Assembly: GCF_003428335.1 (NCBI RefSeq)
Contig: NZ_CP031704.1
Coordinates: forward strand, 1,674,001 to 1,738,000
From: Solimonas sp. K1W22B-7
GTDB lineage: Bacteria > Pseudomonadota > Gammaproteobacteria > Nevskiales > Nevskiaceae
Reading direction: 5' to 3'
DNA length: 64,000 nucleotides
Shown here: positions 38,944-60,382 of the stretch, piece after piece
Layout of the letters: each line of letters begins with the position of its first letter
Position numbering within the stretch: position 1 is the stretch's first letter
The notes under the pieces: model-generated
The model's input: the letters and a program-made list of their open reading frames with translations, nothing else
Told to the model about the DNA's origin: nothing
Databases searched by the model: none
Position numbers and translations under genes: made by a program

Positions 38944-39058
38944 CCCTCTCCCGCTGGCGGGAGAGGGTAGGGCGAGGGTGGTGCAGTGGCGGTACGCACC
39001 TCTCAGATGCTTGAGGGCTCCACCCTCACCCCCGCCCTCTCCCGCCAGCGGGAGAGGG
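38944..39058. repeat. Inverted pair of palindromic repeats (solo copy)
   Basis: Two near-identical palindromes face each other. The left is 38944-38967 (CCCTCTCCCGC / GCGGGAGAGGG) with tail TAGGGCGAGGGTGG; the right is 39035-39058 with mirrored tail CCACCCTCACCCCCG starting at 39020. The arms match over about 38 bases and enclose only 38 bases without a gene. The same architecture frames the DUF559 gene at 48935-49392, so this looks like an empty or miniature member of one repeat family. It lies exactly at the prs side of the ECF41 cassette. The rest of 38860-39178 holds no gene. Confidence 0.85.
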
Positions 39059-48038: not shown

Positions 48039-48111
48039 AGTCCGCGAATGAACGCAAATCAACGCGAATGTTCGTCTTTCATTTGCGTGCATTCGCGTTC
48101 ATTTGCGGACT
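48039..48111. repeat. Imperfect 32-bp inverted repeat with 10-base period
   Basis: Arms 48039-48070 and 48080-48111 match at about 27 of 32 positions in inverted orientation. Each arm consists of 10-base units (CGCGAATGAA, CGCAAATCAA, CGCGAATG). It lies between the JAMM-like gene and the crotonase gene and resembles the GCGGAT palindrome at 21285-21347. Confidence 0.8.
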
Positions 48112-48135
48112 GAGATTCGTTTTGAGGAGAGAATT

Positions 48136-48924
48136 ATGAGCGAGCAGAAGATCCTTGTTGAAAAGCGCGGCCACGTGCTGCTGATCGGCTTCAACCGTCC
48201 GCAGAAGTACAACGCCTTCGACCTCGAGATGTTCATGCAGCTGGCCGATGCCTACGGCCAGCTCAATGCCGACCCGGAGCTGCGCTGCGGCCTGGTCTAC
48301 GGCCTGGGCAAGCACTTCCACGCCGGCCTGGAGCTGCCCACCTGGGGCAACACCTTCTCCGCCGGCAAGTGGCTGGACTTCGCCGCCCACCAGTGCGATC
48401 CCTGCGGCCTGACGCCGGACCGCCGCGTCAACAAGCCGATCGTCATGGCGATCCATGGCATCTGCTTCACCTCCGGCATCGAGCTGGCGCTGGCCGCCGA
48501 CATCCGCGTGGTCGGCGACGACGCGCGCTTCGGCCAGATCGAGATCAAGCGCGGCATCTACCCGGTGTTCGGCGCCACCGTGCGCATGGTGCAGGAATTC
48601 GGCTGGGGCAACGCCCAGCGCTACCTGCTCACCGGCGACGAGTTCAACGCCGCCGAGGCGCACCGCATCGGTCTCGCGCAGGAAGTGGTGCCCGCCGGCC
48701 AGCAGTTCGACCGCGCGCTGGAGATCGCCGAGCGCGTCGCCAAACAGGCGCCGCTGGGCGTCTACGCCAGCCTCAAGTCCTCGCGCATCACCATGGAAAA
48801 GGGTTTCGTCGCCGCCGTCGCCGCGCTGATGCCCGACCTGCAGCCGATCATGGGCAGCGAGGATGCGAAGGAAGGCGTGCAATCCTTCGTCGAACGTCGC
48901 GAGGCGCAGTTCAAGGGGCGCTGA
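48136..48924 (+). CDS. Crotonase/enoyl-CoA hydratase family protein
   Basis: About 262 residues with the crotonase fold. The first oxyanion-hole region is LVYGLGKHFHAGLEL and the second GICFTSGIELALAADIRV; FGQIEIKRGIYPVFGATVRM follows at the position of the catalytic region. The usual second catalytic Glu is not obvious, so hydratase, isomerase or hydrolase activity cannot be decided. The ATG at 48136 follows GAGGAGAGAATT. It stands alone between two repeat elements. Confidence 0.85.
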   Translation: MSEQKILVEKRGHVLLIGFNRPQKYNAFDLEMFMQLADAYGQLNADPELRCGLVYGLGKHFHAGLELPTWGNTFSAGKWLDFAAHQCDPCGLTPDRRVNKPIVMAIHGICFTSGIELALAADIRVVGDDARFGQIEIKRGIYPVFGATVRMVQEFGWGNAQRYLLTGDEFNAAEAHRIGLAQEVVPAGQQFDRALEIAERVAKQAPLGVYASLKSSRITMEKGFVAAVAALMPDLQPIMGSEDAKEGVQSFVERREAQFKGR

Positions 48925-48934
48925 GGCTATGTGG

Positions 48935-48981
48935 CTCCCTCTCCCCGCAAGGCGGGGAGAGGGTTGGGGTGAGGGGCCACG
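48935..48981. repeat. Left palindromic repeat of the DUF559 unit
   Basis: A perfect 12-bp stem CCCTCTCCCCGC / GCGGGGAGAGGG with loop AAG (48937-48963), followed by TTGGGGTGAGGGGC. It lies 10 bases after the crotonase stop and may also act as a terminator-like structure. Confidence 0.9.
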
Positions 48982-48999
48982 CATTTCCCCGGAGAAACG

Positions 49000-49344
49000 A
49001 TGCGAGGTCCCGATCCCAAAACCACGACTCGCTCCCGTAGTCTGCGTCGCGATCCGACCGACGCCGAAGCACATCTCTGGTACCGCTTGCGTGATCGCCA
49101 GCTTGCCGGCTGCAAATTCCGGCGCCAGGTTCCGCTGGGCCCTTACTTTGCCGATTTTGCTTGTGCGGAGAAGTGGCTTGTTGTCGAACTAGACGGTGGC
49201 CAGCACGCTGAGCAGGTGGCGCAGGACGCCGATCGCAGTGCTTATCTGCGCACAGAGGGCTACACCGTGCTGCGGTTTTGGAACGATCAGGTGCTGCGTG
49301 AGATGGAGGGCGTGCTGGAGGAAATCCTGCGGCATCTCGGCTGA
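49000..49344 (+). CDS. DUF559 (Vsr/restriction-endonuclease-like) protein
   Basis: 114 residues of the DUF559 family, related to very-short-patch repair and other PD-(D/E)xK nucleases. Signature parts are RRDPTDAEAHLWYRLRDRQL, KFRRQVPLGPYFADF, then WLVVELDGGQH with the putative catalytic Asp and Glu-x-Asp, and EGYTVLRFWNDQVL near the end. The ATG follows GGAGAAACG. It is complete and intact. The role of these single-domain proteins is unknown; DNA repair, restriction and repeat mobilisation have all been suggested by context. Confidence 0.9.
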   Translation: MRGPDPKTTTRSRSLRRDPTDAEAHLWYRLRDRQLAGCKFRRQVPLGPYFADFACAEKWLVVELDGGQHAEQVAQDADRSAYLRTEGYTVLRFWNDQVLREMEGVLEEILRHLG

Positions 49345-49351
49345 AAAGCCG

Positions 49352-49392
49352 CCCCTCACCCCAACCCTCTCCCCGCAAGCGGGGAGAGGGAG
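49352..49392. repeat. Right palindromic repeat of the DUF559 unit
   Basis: CCCCTCACCCCAACC leads into a perfect stem CCCTCTCCCCGC / GCGGGGAGAGGG (49365-49390). It is an inverted copy of the left repeat with one extra base pair of loop difference, starting 7 bases after the DUF559 stop and ending 11 bases before the next gene's stop. Confidence 0.9.
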
Positions 49393-49403
49393 TAGGCACT
49401 TTC

Positions 49404-51836
49404 TCAGGGTGCCTGCAACAGATAAACCTGCTGCGTCCGGTCCCTTTGCAACCGCGCCGCATTGCGCGTGCTCGCGAACGCAATCGCGCCGCCATCCGTC
49501 GCCGGCCAGGTATTCACGCCGCGCGAGTTGATCAGCTTCGCCTCGCCCCAGACCCCCGACACCAGCCGCGCCGTCATCACGCGCCAGCGCCAGTCGGCGG
49601 CGCGCGAGTCGTACCAGGCGGCGCGCACGCTGCCGTCCGGCGCCGCGCCCAGTTCCGGGTACTGGCTCATCGCCGGGCCCGCGGCGATCGGCGCCGGTTC
49701 GCCGAAGGCGCCCAGCGCCGCGTCGGACACCACCGCCAGCACCTCGGTATTGGCGCCGGAGGAATGCAGTTCCTTGCTGTCCCAGGCCAGCACCAGTCGG
49801 CCGTCGCCGTTGAAGGCGATGGCGGGGTGGCGGTCGGCACGTTCGTCGGAACCGACGCTCAATGCTGCGCCCCAGTCGCCACCGGCGGGGCGGGTGGCGA
49901 CCTGGATCTGCCAGTTGTCGGGGTCGGTGCCTTCGCCGCTGCCGGTCTGGCCGGTCCATAGCGGGTCCGGGTCGGTGCGGTTGTCCTGCCAGCTCACGGC
50001 CAGCAGGCCGTCGCCGCGTGCGGCGACGCGCGGGCGCACCGAGGCGGGGTAGAGCGCCGAACGGCTGTCGATCAGCAGCGCTGCACGCACGGTCTTGCCC
50101 TCGCGCGTCAGGTTGCGCGGTTCGGTATCCACGCCGACCAGTTGCGCCCAGATGTCGAAGGGCTGCTGCGCGCGGATTTCCTGCCAGGCCACCAGCGGAT
50201 GGCCCTGGGCGTCCAGCGCCAGGTCGGGCCGCTCGGCGCGGCCGTCGATGGCGCGCAGGGTCTGCGCCGGCTGCCAGCTGCTGCCGCCGTCCGTGGAGTG
50301 GCGCAGGCGGATCGCCGGGCGGCGCGGCTGCTGGCCGGCCATTTCGTCCTGCCAGACCACCCAGACGTCATTGCCGCGGGCGGCCACGCGCGGGAAGCGC
50401 GCGCTGGCCGAATCCGGCGCCAGGCTCACCGGCGCGCTCCAGGCATTGCCGCTGCGGCGGCGGTAGACCACGCGTGTCGCGGCCGCCTCATGCAGTTCCG
50501 CCACCAGGTGGGTCTTGCCCTGGCTGACGGCCAGATCGGGGAAGCCGCCGAACTGGCCTGCGGCGCCCAGCGCCAGCAGGGCGCCGTCGTCGCCGCCGGC
50601 ATCGGCCGGCAGCGGGATCTCGGGCTGCGCGCTGACCGGCGCGGTGGAGATGAAGATCGGCGAGATCGCCGACAGCAGCGTGTCGGGGATCTCCGTCAGC
50701 AGCGGGATCAGCCCGCCCGGCAGCAGCCCGGTGTTGATCGCCGACGGCAGGCCGATGCCGCGCGCTTCCAGCCGATACCAGGTGGGTTCCGCGCCCACCT
50801 CGATGTCCACCGTGTAGGTCTGGTTCAGCGAGGCCGGCTGGAAGGTCTGCAGCGGCCCGGCGCTGCGGCCGGGCGACTGGTACAGCATCACGCGCGCGCC
50901 CAGGCCATTGCGCACCGTGATGCGCAGCTTGCCCTTGCGCCCGGCGGGGGCGATGGCCTCGTCGCCGGCGATGGCCTCGTAGACCTCGTCGCCCTGCAGG
51001 TCGGCCTCCAGCGTCAGCTGCGGCGACAGGCCGGCGTCGCTGATGCGCGTGCGGCCGCTCCACAGCGCCTGCAGCAGGGCGCGCTCGCTGCGGTCGGCGG
51101 AAAACACCGAGGTGGTGGGGCGACCCGGCCCGGCGTAGATCCACAGTTCGCGGAAATGGTCGTCGCTGGCGCCGTTGATGCCGAAGCGGAAACCGGCGTT
51201 CCAGCGGTTCTCGGCGTAGTCGATCTCGACATCCGGGCTGCTGGCGCGGTTCCAGGCTTCCACCAGGTCCACGCCCTGGGCGCTGGCGCGGGCATTGGGC
51301 TGGCCGTCGTCGAACTCGCCGTCGTCGGGGTGCGCGGTGATCCAGACCGCGCCCTGGCTGTGGGCGTCCCAGATGCTCCACTGCAAGGGCACGAATTCCG
51401 GCTGCCCCTCGGGCTGGGCGCCCTGCACGATGGTGTCGGTGGCCCCGTGGACCGTGGCATGCGGGCTGCCGTTGGCTTCTTCACCCGGGATCAGCAGCAG
51501 GTCGCCGGATTCCCACAGCGGGTCGTAGTGCTGGTCGTAGGTGCGGTGGTCGGTCAGCGGCAGGAAGTCCAGGCCGGTCAGCACCGCCTGGCCGATCTGG
51601 TCGGCCACCGAGACGTTGCCCGGCCCCTTGTCGTCGCCCAGCTGGCGCAGCAGGCTGCCATCGGAGGAATGGTCGTCGTGGACGTGCAGGTCGCCAGCCA
51701 GCCAGCTGCCCTCGGGCGCGGTCGGCGGCAGAGGTGGTTGCGGCTGCGGGGCGGCGGCGCCCTCCAGGTCGCTACGGCTGCAACTGGCCAGGACAAGGCC
51801 CAGGCCCAGCAGCAGGCCGCGTATCGTTCGATTCAT
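49404..51836 (-). CDS. PHP-domain (CehA/McbA-like) lipoprotein with C-terminal sialidase-like region
   Basis: About 810 residues. The lipobox LVLASC marks a lipoprotein. Residues ~45-270 form a PHP metal-hydrolase domain: GDLHVHDDHSSDG, LPLTDHRTYD, IPGEEANG, WITAHPDDGEF and NGASDDHF supply the His/Asp/Glu metal ligands, close to the CehA/McbA group. The C-terminal half is beta-rich with repeated Ser-x-Asp-Gly and Trp motifs (RHSTDGGSSWQPAQTL, VSWQDNRTDPDP) like Asp-box propellers. I chose the ATG at 51836 (MNRTIRGLLL); the frame is open 27 codons further without a signal. Substrate unknown; a phosphodiester or ester at the cell surface is possible. Confidence 0.82.
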   Translation of the reverse strand: MNRTIRGLLLGLGLVLASCSRSDLEGAAAPQPQPPLPPTAPEGSWLAGDLHVHDDHSSDGSLLRQLGDDKGPGNVSVADQIGQAVLTGLDFLPLTDHRTYDQHYDPLWESGDLLLIPGEEANGSPHATVHGATDTIVQGAQPEGQPEFVPLQWSIWDAHSQGAVWITAHPDDGEFDDGQPNARASAQGVDLVEAWNRASSPDVEIDYAENRWNAGFRFGINGASDDHFRELWIYAGPGRPTTSVFSADRSERALLQALWSGRTRISDAGLSPQLTLEADLQGDEVYEAIAGDEAIAPAGRKGKLRITVRNGLGARVMLYQSPGRSAGPLQTFQPASLNQTYTVDIEVGAEPTWYRLEARGIGLPSAINTGLLPGGLIPLLTEIPDTLLSAISPIFISTAPVSAQPEIPLPADAGGDDGALLALGAAGQFGGFPDLAVSQGKTHLVAELHEAAATRVVYRRRSGNAWSAPVSLAPDSASARFPRVAARGNDVWVVWQDEMAGQQPRRPAIRLRHSTDGGSSWQPAQTLRAIDGRAERPDLALDAQGHPLVAWQEIRAQQPFDIWAQLVGVDTEPRNLTREGKTVRAALLIDSRSALYPASVRPRVAARGDGLLAVSWQDNRTDPDPLWTGQTGSGEGTDPDNWQIQVATRPAGGDWGAALSVGSDERADRHPAIAFNGDGRLVLAWDSKELHSSGANTEVLAVVSDAALGAFGEPAPIAAGPAMSQYPELGAAPDGSVRAAWYDSRAADWRWRVMTARLVSGVWGEAKLINSRGVNTWPATDGGAIAFASTRNAARLQRDRTQQVYLLQAP

Positions 51837-52032
51837 GGTTTTTCCCGGTCCGAACTGTCGTGGGTGCCGCGGGTTGCCGGGCAAAGGTCGGATTTCCAGG
51901 CAGATTCTAGGGGGCATCGGTGGGGCAGGGCTGTAGGAGAATCGCAGGGTATCCGGGGCTGCCGGCCTGTGATCCGCCAGTCTAGGGCGCCCGAATGACA
52001 GCCAGAATGCAGCCGCGGACGCTCCCAGCGAC

Positions 52033-56815: not shown

Positions 56816-57355
56816 ATGTCCCGACATATCCGCTGGCCGGTCCTCCTGTGCCTGCTGCCGCTTTGCGCCTGCGTCACCAAGCTGTTCGACAAGGACTACG
56901 CGCCGCCCGCAGACTCGGCAGTGGCGCGGGTGGTGTTCCTGTCGCTGGATCGCGGCTCCTATACCGTCGACGTCCTGCAGGACGAGAAGTGGAAGCCGAC
57001 GCGCTGGCACGCCAGCGAGCACCGCGCCGCCGGTGGCGCTTCATTCTTCAACGAGATGAGCCAGGCCGACGGCGAAATCCTTGCCGGCGAGCAGGTTGCG
57101 CTGCGGCTGAACTTCCAGGCGCCGGCGAACGACGACGAGCCGGAACTGAGCTGCACACCGGAAGTGCGCATCTGCGGCATGGCGGACACGCGCTACGAGT
57201 TGCTGCTGCGGGCGGTCAAGGGCCAGTGCGAGGTCATCCTGCGCAAGCAGTACGTCAGCGACACCGGCGTACTGCGCCGCGACACGCTGGACCTGAAGAA
57301 GGCCGCGCGTTGCCCGGCACCTGCACCTGCACCGACGACGGAGCGCAAGCCGTGA
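56816..57355 (+). CDS. Small lipoprotein, unknown function
   Basis: About 179 residues beginning MSRHIRWPVLLCLLPLCAC, a signal peptide with lipobox LCAC. The mature part is beta-rich with two cysteine pairs (CTPEVRIC; CEVIL...C) and no motif I recognise. The tail is PAPAPAPTTERKP. It starts 8 bases after wrbA and its stop overlaps the next gene as GTGA, so it is part of the acylase-wrbA-DUF2069 operon. An envelope role is likely. Confidence 0.75.
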   Translation: MSRHIRWPVLLCLLPLCACVTKLFDKDYAPPADSAVARVVFLSLDRGSYTVDVLQDEKWKPTRWHASEHRAAGGASFFNEMSQADGEILAGEQVALRLNFQAPANDDEPELSCTPEVRICGMADTRYELLLRAVKGQCEVILRKQYVSDTGVLRRDTLDLKKAARCPAPAPAPTTERKP

Positions 57356-57684
57356 AGCTGAGTCCCCTGATGCACGCGCTGGCAGTGGCCTGCCACCTCG
57401 CCCTGATCAGCGGCCTGCTGATCTTCTGCAGCGGCCGGCTGGCCCTGCTGTTCGGCTTCCTGCTGTTCCTGCCGCTGCCCGGCCTGCTGCGCGGCAAGGA
57501 GCGCACCCATGCCTGGACCAGCATGCTGATCTCGTTCTACTGCGCCGCGCTGGCGTCCAACGCCTATTCCTCCAGCCATGGCCGCGCGTTGTGGTTCGTG
57601 CTGGCCTCGCTCGCGGCGCTGGAGTTCGCGGCGACGGTGCTGTATGTGCGCTTCAGGGCACGCGAGAAGATCGCGGCGGCCTGA
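57352..57684 (+). CDS. DUF2069 inner-membrane protein
   Basis: About 110 residues with four hydrophobic helices (ALAVACHLALISGLLIFCSG, LLFGFLLFLPLPGLLRGK, WTSMLISFYCAALASNAYSS, LASLAALEFAATVLYVRF). The PLPGLLRGKERTHAWTSMLI motif is typical of DUF2069. Function unknown. The GTG at 57352 overlaps the preceding stop. In many gammaproteobacteria this gene follows wrbA. Confidence 0.85.
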   Translation: MKLSPLMHALAVACHLALISGLLIFCSGRLALLFGFLLFLPLPGLLRGKERTHAWTSMLISFYCAALASNAYSSSHGRALWFVLASLAALEFAATVLYVRFRAREKIAAA

Positions 57685-57733
57685 TTGACGGCCTGCTGTT
57701 GCGGCCCACTTCCAGACGCGAGCCTCCTGCCTG

Positions 57734-57811
57734 ATTCGCGCGGGCGATCCGTCGCCGGACTGGGCCTGGGACGTGAGGTTGGAGGCTTCAGTGGGCGAGC
57801 GTGAGCAGTGA
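57734..57811 (+). pseudogene. 3' remnant of a second RAYT transposase gene
   Basis: Bases 57737-57811 encode RAGDPSPDWAWDVRLEASVG followed by EREQ and a stop, nearly the same as the C-terminus of the intact RAYT downstream (RAGDLSPDWAADVELETSVG then PRER). The DNA after the stop is also shared, including the REP pair. Everything 5' of base 57734 is unrelated. So a second RAYT copy stood here and lost all but its last 25 codons. Confidence 0.85.
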
Positions 57812-57815
57812 TGTC

Positions 57816-57887
57816 GGGGTTCGCTCCGCTCACCGCCAACCTACAGGGCTGGCGGATGTAGGTTGGGGTGAGCTTGCGAACCCCAAC
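57816..57887. repeat. REP pair (REPIN) upstream of the RAYT gene
   Basis: Two inverted REP sequences: GGGGTTCGCTCCGCTC with ACCGCCAACCTACA (57816-57845), and TGTAGGTTGGGGTGAG with CTTGCGAACCCC (57857-57887). The GTAGGTTGG...GCGAACCCCAAC form is the known REP type that accompanies RAYTs in gammaproteobacteria. Confidence 0.9.
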
Positions 57888-57910
57888 ATCCCATATCTAC
57901 GATCACTGGC

Positions 57911-58444
57911 ATGCGCTATCGAAGAGCCAGTGCGCCTGGCGGCACGTACTTCTTCACGGTCAATCTCGCCGACCGCTCGAGCCGACTGCTGGTGGATCGC
58001 GTCGATGACCTGCGGGAGGCTGTTCGTTTAGTCAAACAGCGCCATCCGTTCGAGATTCCGGGGTGGGTGGTTCTTCCCGATCATCTGCATGCCGTCTGGG
58101 CCCTGCCACCCGACGATGCTGATTTCTCGACGCGATGGACGCTTATCAAGGGTGGCTTTGCCCGCCGTATCGAGCCGGGAGAGTTCGTCCGATCGAGCAG
58201 GGAGCGAAAAGGCGAACGCGGCATCTGGCAGCGACGATTCTGGGAGCACCAGATTCGTGACGAGGATGACCTTGAGCGGCATCTCGATTACATCCATATC
58301 AATCCGGTCAAGCACGGATGTGTGAGTCGCGCCGCGGATTGGCAGTGGTCTTCGATCCATCGCTATGTCCGCGCGGGCGATCTTTCGCCGGACTGGGCTG
58401 CGGATGTGGAGTTGGAGACTTCGGTGGGACCGCGCGAGCGGTGA
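57911..58444 (+). CDS. REP-associated tyrosine transposase (RAYT)
   Basis: 177 residues of the Y1-transposase (TnpA-REP) family, related to IS200/IS605 transposases. The HUH motif is in VVLPDHLHAVWALP near residues 56-69; the catalytic tyrosine is in RHLDYIHINPVKHG near 136. WQRRFWEHQIRDEDDLE is also typical. It is intact and flanked on both sides by REP pairs that it is expected to bind and cut as single-stranded DNA. Such genes are usually single-copy domesticated elements that spread REP sequences. Confidence 0.95.
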   Translation: MRYRRASAPGGTYFFTVNLADRSSRLLVDRVDDLREAVRLVKQRHPFEIPGWVVLPDHLHAVWALPPDDADFSTRWTLIKGGFARRIEPGEFVRSSRERKGERGIWQRRFWEHQIRDEDDLERHLDYIHINPVKHGCVSRAADWQWSSIHRYVRAGDLSPDWAADVELETSVGPRER

Positions 58445-58448
58445 TGCT

Positions 58449-58545
58449 GGGGTTCGCTACGCTCGCCTGGAGGCGCCTACTTTTGGCACCGCCAACCTAC
58501 AGGGCGGCGGATGTAGGTTGGCGGTGAGCGCAGCGAACCCCAACG
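58449..58545. repeat. REP pair (REPIN) downstream of the RAYT gene
   Basis: The inverted REP pair GGGGTTCGCTACGCTC ... ACCGCCAACCTACA and TGTAGGTTGGCGGTGAGC, then GCAGCGAACCCCAAC. Relative to the upstream pair, the left arm carries an insertion of about 23 bases with GGAGGCGCC and CTTTTGGC. It ends 11 bases before the hda stop. Confidence 0.88.
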
Positions 58546-58556
58546 TCCCCGCAACC

Positions 58557-59222
58557 TCAATCCACCAGCACCGACTGCACGAACGGCAGCGTCAGCCGCC
58601 GCTTCGCCGCCAGCGCCTCGCGGTCGAGCCGCTCCAGCGCCTCCAGCAAACTCGGGATATCCCGTGAGCGGTGGTTGAGCAGCCAACGTGTCACTTCCTC
58701 CGGCAGCTCCAGGCCGCGCGCCTTGGCGCGCTCGCGCAGCAGTTCGCGGCGGTCGTCGTCGCTGGGCGGCTTGAGGCCGAAGCGGCTGCAGGCGCCCAGG
58801 CGGGTGCGCAGGTCGGGCAGGGCCAGGGTCATCCGTTCCGGCGGTGCGTCGGTGGCGAAGGCATAGCCGGCGCCGCGGGCGCGCAACTGGTCCACCAGGC
58901 GCAGCAGGGCGATGCACCACTCGCGGTCGGGGGTCACCCGCTCGAGGTCGTCGATGCAGACCGCCGGCGCAGCCTCAAGTCCCTCGAGCAGGGAAGGGCC
59001 GTGCGCCGCCAGTTCCGCCAGCGGCAGGTAGGCGGCACGGTGTTGCCGTGCGGCAGCCTGCAGCAAATGGCTGCGGCCGCTGCCGGGCGGGCCGTAGAGC
59101 AGGACCGGCACGCCCAGCGACTGCAGGGCCTGCACGGCTTCGGCGTTGGGGCCGGGGTAATAGCTCTCGAAGCTGGCCGATTCGCGCAATTGCACGGCCA
59201 GCGGCAGCTGCGCACCGATCAT
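58557..59222 (-). CDS. hda: DnaA regulatory inactivator Hda
   Basis: AAA+ protein of about 221 residues that, with the loaded DNA clamp, promotes ATP hydrolysis by DnaA after initiation. Walker A is YGPPGSGRSHLLQAAA, with the Hda-typical Arg-Ser in place of Lys-Thr; Walker B is VCIDDLERV; sensor parts ALPDLRTRLGAC and the C-terminal lid follow. It lacks the DnaA DNA-binding domain. The ATG at 59222 overlaps the permease stop (ATGA). The order purM | DUF2066 - perM - hda is conserved. Confidence 0.93.
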   Translation of the reverse strand: MIGAQLPLAVQLRESASFESYYPGPNAEAVQALQSLGVPVLLYGPPGSGRSHLLQAAARQHRAAYLPLAELAAHGPSLLEGLEAAPAVCIDDLERVTPDREWCIALLRLVDQLRARGAGYAFATDAPPERMTLALPDLRTRLGACSRFGLKPPSDDDRRELLRERAKARGLELPEEVTRWLLNHRSRDIPSLLEALERLDREALAAKRRLTLPFVQSVLVD

Positions 59223-60382
59223 GGCAGGGGGCCGGGCGGCTCTTCGGAGGCGGGTGGGGCTGCCGGCACGGGGGGCGCGGGCTGCGCGGTTCCGGCGAGG
59301 TAGAGCGGGCTCAACAGCCATTGCTGCTTGGTGTGGCGCATCAGCACCGCCAGCACCGCCGCCGCCGGCAGCGCCACCAGCACGCCGACGAAGCCGAACA
59401 GCTGGCCGCCGGCCATGATCGCGAAGATCACCGCCACCGGGTGCAGGCCGATACGGTCGCCGACCAGCAAGGGGGTCAGCACGTTGCCTTCGAGGAACTG
59501 GCCGACGCCGAACACCACCGCGATCCAGATCAGCGAGGTGGGGTCCTGGGTCTGCACCAGCATCGCGATCACGGCGATCAGCACACCGACGATGCTGCCG
59601 AGATAGGGGATGAAGCTGATCAGGCCGACGATGATGCCGACCACCAGGGCCAGGTCCAGGCCGGCGATCCACAGCGCGACGGCGTAGTAGACCGCCAGTG
59701 CCGCCATCACCGACAGCTGGCCGCGGATGAAGGCGCCCAGCACCTCGTCGGCCTCGCCGGCCAGCTGGCCGACCCGGGGCAGGTAGCGCGGCGGGATCAT
59801 GCCGCGGATCCAGCTGACCAGGTCATCCCAGTCGCGCAGCAGGTAGAAGCTCACCACCGGGATCAGCAGCAGGTTGGCGACCGTGACCAGCAGCAGCTTG
59901 CCGGACTGCGACACGCGCTCCCAGGCGGCCTGGGCGAAGCCGCCGGCCTCGGACCAGTGCTGGGTGATGATGGCCTTGAGGCCCTCGGCATCCAGCTCCA
60001 CGCCGGCCGGCAGGGCGATGCCCAGGCGCGGCAGGGCCTGCTCCTGCAGCCAGACCAGCCAGTCGGGGATGTTGCGCAGCAGCGCCAGGAACTGGTGGTA
60101 GACCATCGGCGCCAGCAGCAGCAGCGCCGCCAGGCCCGCCAGGCTCAGCACCACGAACACCACGCAGACCGCGGCGGTGCGCGACAGGCGCAGGCGCTGC
60201 AGGCGGTCCACCACCGGGTCGCCGACATAGGCCAGGGCGGCGCCGACGATGAAGGGCATCAGGATCGGGCCGAGCAGGAACAGGAGCAGCAGCAGGGCGG
60301 CGCCCACCACCAGCCAGGGCCAGTGCTCGCGCAAGTGGAAGCGCATGTAGTCTTCCGCCGAATCAACCGGTTCCGTGGACAT
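59219..60382 (-). CDS. AI-2E family transporter (PerM/UPF0118)
   Basis: Inner-membrane protein of 387 residues with about eight hydrophobic helices (VVGAALLLLLFLLGPILMPF, AAVCVVFVVLSLAGLAALLL, LDLALVVGIIVGLISFIPYL and others). The family motif around LISFIPYLGSIVGVLIAVIA and FLEGNVLTPLLVGDRIGLHP is present. Relatives export autoinducer-2 or act as Na+/H+ antiporters; the specific cargo cannot be deduced. It is coupled to hda downstream and follows the DUF2066 gene by 8 bases. Confidence 0.9.
   Translation of the reverse strand: MSTEPVDSAEDYMRFHLREHWPWLVVGAALLLLLFLLGPILMPFIVGAALAYVGDPVVDRLQRLRLSRTAAVCVVFVVLSLAGLAALLLLAPMVYHQFLALLRNIPDWLVWLQEQALPRLGIALPAGVELDAEGLKAIITQHWSEAGGFAQAAWERVSQSGKLLLVTVANLLLIPVVSFYLLRDWDDLVSWIRGMIPPRYLPRVGQLAGEADEVLGAFIRGQLSVMAALAVYYAVALWIAGLDLALVVGIIVGLISFIPYLGSIVGVLIAVIAMLVQTQDPTSLIWIAVVFGVGQFLEGNVLTPLLVGDRIGLHPVAVIFAIMAGGQLFGFVGVLVALPAAAVLAVLMRHTKQQWLLSPLYLAGTAQPAPPVPAAPPASEEPPGPLP

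Follow-up and report, generated by a model that had tools for sequence, protein, structure and literature searches.

A DUF559 nuclease gene between inverted hairpin repeats in Solimonas sp. K1W22B-7, a probable autonomous member of a REP-like mobile repeat family

Organization of the locus

In this work, we are describing a short unit in a 64,000-nucleotide stretch of Solimonas sp. K1W22B-7 DNA (NZ_CP031704.1, positions 1,674,001 to 1,738,000), further called the window, whose own numbering is used for all coordinates unless the whole genome is named. The unit (48935-49392) consists of a DUF559 (PF04480) gene placed between inverted arms of about 42 nt, designated type A. Its left arm (48935..48977, + strand) is composed of a hairpin (48937-48963, CCCTCTCCCCGC-AAG-GCGGGGAGAGGG) and, behind it, a G-rich tail facing the gene (TTGGGGTGAGGGGC). 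The gene itself (49000..49344, + strand) encodes a protein of 114 aa with a single PD-(D/E)xK/Vsr-like domain, and the right arm (49351..49392, - strand), inverted relative to the left one, carries the tail at 49351-49364 and the hairpin at 49365-49390. Two neighbours lie outside the unit: on the left a gene which by eye is enoyl-CoA hydratase-like (48136..48924, + strand), and on the right an 837-aa ORF (49404..51917, - strand), which is conserved in the congeneric genomes G001, G002 and G003 and served as the right anchor for the empty-site comparison. Just upstream of the left neighbour gene there is a second dispersed repeat of ~74 bp (48039-48114, GTAGTCCGCGAATGAACGCAAATCAACGCGAATG...), with about 33 other places in the same genome counted by eye among the matches listed.

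The original prediction of a DUF559-like gene between two inverted hairpin arms was confirmed by a profile match together with a repeat search. The latter returned two pairs of inverted stretches, 48952-48977/49351-49376 (26 nt) and 48935-48948/49379-49392 (14 nt), both of 100% identity, and likewise bore out the perfect 12-bp hairpin claimed for each arm, as two internal 12-bp palindromes are present, one per arm. Folded as ssDNA, the arms reach -16.1 and -14.0 kcal/mol (z -5.2 and -5.0 vs shuffles). The arm core CCCCTCACCCCAACCCTCTCCCC, searched with up to 3 mismatches allowed, has 44 matches in the 5.37-Mb genome, against 0 for the reversed-pattern control. Reading the window unit by eye, we noticed neither a T-run after the hairpins nor a GTAG/CGTC tag at the foot of the left-arm hairpin; a GTAG is situated at 49392-49395, outside the right hairpin, and has no left counterpart.

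Two further claims, of a gene-less miniature relative 10 kb away and of a RAYT in the same window, held in part. The miniature is real (38944..39058, no strand assigned; two hairpins with tails inside, folding at -52.7 kcal/mol, z -8.8), but its arms belong to another type (B), whereas the window gene is flanked by type A. As for the RAYT, a PF01797 match exists at 57992-58297, but it stays below the curated cut-off (22.3 vs 23 bits), and no perfect hairpin of at least 9 bp (loop 2-8) was found near it in 57001-59500.

The DUF559 protein

The window ORF matches PF04480 at 142.7 bits (curated cut-off 20.6) over residues 8-113, with sub-threshold PF18741 as the sole other profile match; the Y1/HUH tyrosine transposase (PF01797), looked for as a partner gene, gave no match in the protein of the unit. 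Residues E23, D52, E63, D65, H69, D76 and R79 are invariant in both alignments (33 and 47 sequences). DUF559 relatives occur also in viral collections, and nine viral loci were included in alignment A2. Between the window gene and its G001 orthologue dN is 0.142 against a dS of 1.61 (dN/dS 0.09), thus the gene is under purifying selection.

The structure model used here has a pLDDT of 84.8; a single-sequence model (pLDDT 48.7) was set aside. In Foldseek searches the model with pLDDT 84.8 matched NGO0050 (PDB 3hrl, E=4.9e-9) and the homing endonuclease I-Bth0305I (PDB 3r3p, E=4.4e-4, TM 0.66/0.75), the latter being closer than any other solved structure from outside DUF559; Vsr (1cw0, E=0.014) was a weaker match. 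Entries 3hrl and 3r3p were also recovered with the sequence profile, 3r3p at E=5.4e-5. The modelled DUF559 fold is Vsr/homing-endonuclease-like, and this predicted fold and the conserved acidic/His site agree on the PD-(D/E)xK-type enzyme that had been proposed. Matches to toxin B subunit profiles (E 0.18 and above) were rejected as chance.

Arm types and gene-less miniatures

The Solimonas sp. K1W22B-7 genome contains three DUF559 genes, all between inverted hairpins and each with a different arm type: A in the window (49000-49344), B at genome positions 833825-834136 and C at 1467012-1467323. Each congener has two flanked DUF559 genes, with arms of types A and D (G001), C and D (G002), and C and E (G003). 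Taken together, the four genus genomes yielded 9 DUF559 genes, every one between inverted arms, which fall into five types.

Each arm type of the K1W22B-7 genome occurs also as gene-less miniature pairs. In 864 kb we found 7 pairs of the A-C types, four C-C and three B-B, all of them (7/7) homotypic with tails inside and none mixed, and their types match the arms of the DUF559 genes of the same genome. The 4 type-A arms from the same 864 kb are weak evidence, because the reversed control gave 2 single type-A matches there; A-A pairs were recognized by eye at the loci L007 and L012/L013. Another element of this genome, L016, looks chimeric. Counted by eye among the matches listed (at least 80% identity and 100 bp), type-B miniatures take 21 places in the K1W22B-7 genome, the only one of the four genus genomes with a type-B DUF559 gene; also by eye and among the matches listed, 0, 3 and 1 were found in G001, G002 and G003, respectively. 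G003 possesses type-A-like arms (4 in 800 kb) without a type-A gene. Far from being a lone case, the window unit belongs to a large family.

Hairpins flanking DUF559 genes in other genomes

DUF559 loci were surveyed for a perfect hairpin of any sequence with a stem of at least 9 bp, no more than 250 bp from the domain; left and right flanks were counted as inverted at a score of 15 or more, and windows 850-1100 bp away from the locus served as controls. Loci left out comprised 2/23 in relatives (short), 1/89 in the phylum (L175), 5/80 in named genomes (flank under 250 bp), 4/30 of PF01797, 1/30 of GIY-YIG and 1/5 of low-bit DUF559.

Flanking repeats turned out to be linked to DUF559 genes well outside the genome of origin, as the original prediction had required. 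Hairpins accompany 3/3 DUF559 loci of the K1W22B-7 genome and 19/21 in relatives (both sides at 10, inverted flanks at 17), where the control windows gave 2 on either side, 0 on both sides and 0 inverted flanks. In the phylum the figures are 80/88, 41 and 56 against 6/88, 0 and 0 for strong matches only (29 best per genome plus 60 chosen from the matches listed), the loci not being independent, as several genomes contribute more than one. For named genomes of several phyla, represented by the best 80 of at least 569 loci, we obtained 64/75, 40 and 53, with 8, 1 and 0 control windows (n=74) having a hairpin on either side, inverted flanks and hairpins on both sides, respectively. No hairpin within 250 bp was detected at 8/88 phylum and 11/75 named DUF559 loci, nor did four weak, partial DUF559 matches have a flanking one. 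Chance as the source of the flanking hairpins was rejected on the basis of the control windows 850-1100 bp away and of reversed patterns.

Among PF01797 loci (n=26) a hairpin was present on either side at 5 and on both sides at 1, with inverted flanks at 2; the corresponding numbers for GIY-YIG control loci (n=29) are 3, 2 and 7. With inverted flanks at 7/29 loci GIY-YIG is an imperfect neutral control, and so small nucleases may collect near repeats for other reasons. The repeats of these seven loci (L181, L190, L197, L200, L204, L205 and L207) differ in sequence from DUF559 arms, e.g. GTCATTCCCGCGAAGGCGGGAATCC or GTCCCTGCGAACGCAGGGAC, and are perhaps another nuclease-repeat partnership.

Named genomes with hairpins or inverted flanks include Chloroflexi, Nitrospirae, Binatia, Kuenenia and Desulfobacterales, many of them MAGs, and neither feature was found at the Dadabacteria, Daviesbacteria and Legionella loci of this set. 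A DUF559 locus on a Deinococcus plasmid has inverted flanks with a score of 47; two Azospirillum loci and one on a P. aeruginosa plasmid are without such arms. Rhizobium-type DUF559 flanks read CCTTCTCCCC..GGGGAGAAGG. Very long inverted flanks were observed at L225 (S. meliloti Ak57), L100 and L167 (scores 102, 98 and 71), and we take rhizobial arms to resemble RIME elements.

The hairpins share a composition. In 322/363 of those near DUF559 genes the 5' stem arm is at least 88% pyrimidine, and all-pyrimidine arms occur in 175/363 hairpins near the gene vs 15/75 far from it. The gene-facing tail closely repeats the purine arm: for 252 innermost hairpins such a tail, with at most one mismatch, was found on the inner side in 86 cases, on the outer side in 12 and in shuffled inner sequence in 10, and with two mismatches in 147, 22 and 50 cases, respectively.

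Presence and absence at orthologous sites

A comparison with related genomes, suggested as a way to find strains with and without the unit, showed that orthologous sites differ in whether they hold a unit or a miniature. The window site is occupied by an orthologous DUF559 unit in G001; in G003 the left neighbour is followed by a solo hairpin with tail and no DUF559, and G002 carries another ORF and no repeat there. Sinorhizobium sp. K101 carries a ~767-bp unit in which DUF559 stands between two inverted pairs, and at its site in Shinella sp. PSBB067 the flanks are joined (82-83% identity) and there is no repeat. This is the cleanest empty site, yet not base-exact, and no target-site duplication was identified at it.

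Twelve sites of the K1W22B-7 genome, both flanks of which were located in the G003 stretches examined, were compared with G003, where a single hairpin was scored by one rule (2 substitutions per arm). Seven of these sites hold type-B miniatures; at 3 of them (L018, L022, L241:3189) G003 has one hairpin, in part degenerate, at L031 and L033 remnants recognizable by eye alone, and at the other 2 (L030 and the window miniature) nothing. At the 0.0115 hairpins expected per 200-bp gap from the rate in 1.2 Mb of G003, the probability of 3 or more single hairpins in 7 sites is about 5e-5, the real gaps being 46-339 bp. G003 shares the type-C DUF559 site and the two type-C miniatures with the K1W22B-7 genome, has a different pair at the L016 site and lacks one solo hairpin of the K1W22B-7 genome (site e32). 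The type-B miniature of L252 corresponds to one hairpin in G003 and to none in G001 and G002; duplication of the hairpin itself is possible there.

Repeat number in relation to DUF559 and PF01797

Repeats were counted in 299 genomes of the phylum, with DUF559 presence defined as E of 1e-20 or less (83 genomes) and 29 genomes with weaker matches entered as absent; a single repeat pattern was used, and families with other stems were missed. Three or more repeats were found in 53/83 genomes with and 12/216 without DUF559 (Fisher p=1e-25, kinship ignored), and in 33/156 with and 32/143 without PF01797 (p=0.89, kinship ignored). When both families are considered, the fractions are 25/44 for DUF559 without PF01797, 5/117 for PF01797 without DUF559, 28/39 for both and 7/99 for neither. 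Within the order (61 genomes) the Spearman coefficient between repeat count and near-full-length DUF559 is 0.76 (p=1e-12, kinship ignored; 0.69 for the 37 genomes of the family), and that for PF01797 is 0.016 (p=0.90), showing no correlation; at least 5 repeats are present in 21/23 genomes with DUF559 and 3/38 without.

There are exceptions in both directions. Fewer than 3 repeats of the searched pattern were counted in 30/83 DUF559 genomes of the phylum, and in G013 (L052) a DUF559 gene without hairpins resides in a genome without repeats. Conversely, 11/216 phylum genomes without strong DUF559 have at least 5; examples are G306 with 103 (weak DUF559 match), G233 with 68, G114 with 59 and G092 with 42, and G014 has 40 repeats without strong DUF559. 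The reversed-pattern control is large in some genomes (37+32 vs 74+69 in G000) and cannot serve as a clean null, since the pattern is close to symmetric and type-C tails are matched in either orientation; given this imperfect control, the argument rests on the contrast between genomes.

PF01797 was rejected as the mobiliser, since it shows no association in either the 61 or the 299 genomes and no CCCTCTCCC arm lies near 30 of its loci. At these loci the CCCTCTCCC/GGGAGAGGG arm was found within 400 bp of PF01797 in 0/30 cases, and the single CCCTCCCCC match (L081) is inside the gene.

The E. coli family member

The DUF559 family member in E. coli K-12 MG1655 is ycjD, located between sapF and fabI; a 1-kb query of this locus is at least 80% covered at one place in 3361/5426 genomes. 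Near ycjD there is a repeat, CCCCTCGCCCCTCTGGGGAGAGGGTTAGGGTGAGGGG (L226:2512 onward, L232:2310 onward), presumably the box C element, found at 16 places (median) in those E. coli genomes that have it at all. No perfect stem of at least 8 bp (loop 2-8) was found within 300 bp of the ycjD locus outside the gene. We compared copy number in 60 rows among the matches listed, with one plasmid row dropped. The 39 chromosomes whose best match reached at least 96% of the query have 11-28 copies (median 18) and the 20 other E. coli rows 1-14 (median 3; Mann-Whitney U p=9e-9), where the state of ycjD was deduced from query coverage and lineage is a confounder; one O157:H7 row has 12 copies. The sapF-fabI interval was discarded as a clean empty site: strains without ycjD differ by gene replacement, not by clean excision. 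This E. coli repeat, like the Rhizobium-type DUF559 flanks, in our view resembles the RIME, Bru-RS and box C families.

Discussion

Our results suggest that a nuclease, and not a known transposase, drives a widespread repeat system that spreads itself. The window unit is probably an autonomous member of a REP-like palindromic mobile repeat family, with DUF559 as its dedicated enzyme. Most DUF559 genes stand beside hairpins, the repeats are associated with DUF559 and not with PF01797, the arms of genes and miniatures match in type, the gene is under purifying selection, and units and miniatures differ in presence between orthologous sites.

It is possible, although less likely, that DUF559 is instead a homing parasite, a Vsr-type nuclease for which solo hairpins are the target and not its own ends, and which cuts them and copies itself or the miniature core in. 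I-Bth0305I as the best solved fold match outside the family would fit such behaviour, as would the single, partly degenerate hairpins of G003 at 3/7 type-B sites (P=5e-5) and its solo hairpin with tail, free of DUF559, at the window site. Homing alone, however, does not explain that a solo hairpin also comes or goes, or that the whole unit is missing in Shinella, and a solo hairpin could also result when an element's two palindromes recombine with each other.

The repeats could also be moved by a third, unlinked enzyme. That another enzyme spreads them, with DUF559 genes as passengers caught between two repeats, we consider improbable, even if repeats do persist in genomes without strong DUF559 (11/216 with at least 5) and a solo hairpin can be gained or lost alone (site e32). 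PF01797, the obvious candidate, is unrelated to repeat number (p=0.89) and has the CCCTCTCCC/GGGAGAGGG arm near none of 30 loci; a random passenger would hardly recur as the same family in several phyla, and each DUF559 gene in one genome has its own arm type.

It is very unlikely that DUF559 is a host Vsr-like mismatch-repair nuclease with incidental flanking hairpins. Vsr is a structural neighbour of the DUF559 model, and Caulobacter VsrA, which has a DUF559 domain, is reported to be needed for the SOS response in cells without cytosine methyltransferase (PMC12907096); the repair role is, however, put forward there as a hypothesis. Such a host function does not predict inverted hairpins at most loci, repeat number tracking DUF559 or arm types matched to miniatures. 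Ordinary bidirectional transcription terminators can practically be dismissed, despite many of the repeats being, by eye, GC-rich hairpins right after stop codons: this alternative, named at the outset, is disfavoured by window hairpins without a T-run, hairpins that flank one small gene left and right and turn their tails toward it, copy number that follows DUF559, and pyrimidine/purine stems recurring across phyla.

Each end of the units is built of pyrimidine arm, loop, purine arm and purine tail, and the same ends without the gene form miniature pairs (~105-120 bp) and solo hairpins. The predicted Vsr/homing-type nuclease would bind the hairpin-plus-tail end, extruded as a cruciform or exposed as a single-stranded hairpin during replication, and cut there. 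Repair from another copy might then carry the core, i.e. the miniature spacer or the DUF559 gene, between two hairpins, or alternatively remove it and leave one hairpin. Both the fold, of homing type, and the single-hairpin states point to cutting of hairpins followed by repair that copies the core, a homing-like conversion of hairpins; true transposition of hairpin-ended units is possible too. Tentatively, we propose that in several phyla the nuclease may cut solo hairpins, with repair placing a copy of the gene, or of a short core, between two hairpins; the hairpin, the miniature and the unit with the gene would then be three states of one element.

REP-like palindromes are common in bacteria, and many families are without a known partner enzyme. 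If DUF559 is the partner of the pyrimidine/purine-stem families, a large uncharacterised protein family, presumably COG2852, would acquire a function and orphan repeats a mobiliser; the REP/RAYT idea of a repeat with a dedicated nuclease would become a general principle, reached repeatedly with unrelated enzymes. E. coli K-12 has ycjD and related repeats, therefore the question is directly testable, and if the copying between hairpins proposed above is true, this gene and the repeats associated with it would be a member that is easy to test. In the literature searched (titles and abstract starts, few subscription papers covered), we found no paper that connects DUF559 with repeats.

Comparison with known systems

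Terminal inverted repeats common to autonomous and miniature copies are what the DUF559 units share with insertion sequences and their MITEs. I-Bth0305I (PDB 3r3p) and the DUF559 model have in common a Vsr-like fold, and a nuclease of the I-Bth0305I type drives the spread of its own gene; unlike it, the DUF559 gene is not placed inside an intron or a conserved gene, and has palindromic arms and multi-copy gene-less derivatives. YcjD of E. coli K-12 and NGO0050 (PDB 3hrl) belong to DUF559 itself. The former was placed in PD-(D/E)XK as a Vsr relative (PMC1189080), and no repeat partnership of either protein was found in the literature examined.

The closest parallel in behaviour is given by REP/RAYT (REPtron). 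As described in PMC3733652 and PMC8049555, there, too, short dispersed extragenic palindromes occur as singlets and inverted pairs, the partner gene is flanked by repeats and is repeat-specific within a species, and repeat number follows the partner gene, which here is DUF559. The differences are that the partner in our case is a predicted PD-(D/E)xK/Vsr-type nuclease and not a Y1/HUH transposase, that the DUF559 unit has no GTAG/CGTC tag and its purine tail copies the stem arm, and that repeat number is independent of PF01797. The DUF559 system works like REP/RAYT but is not a member of it, because it lacks the transposase that defines REP/RAYT and its repeats do not track that transposase.
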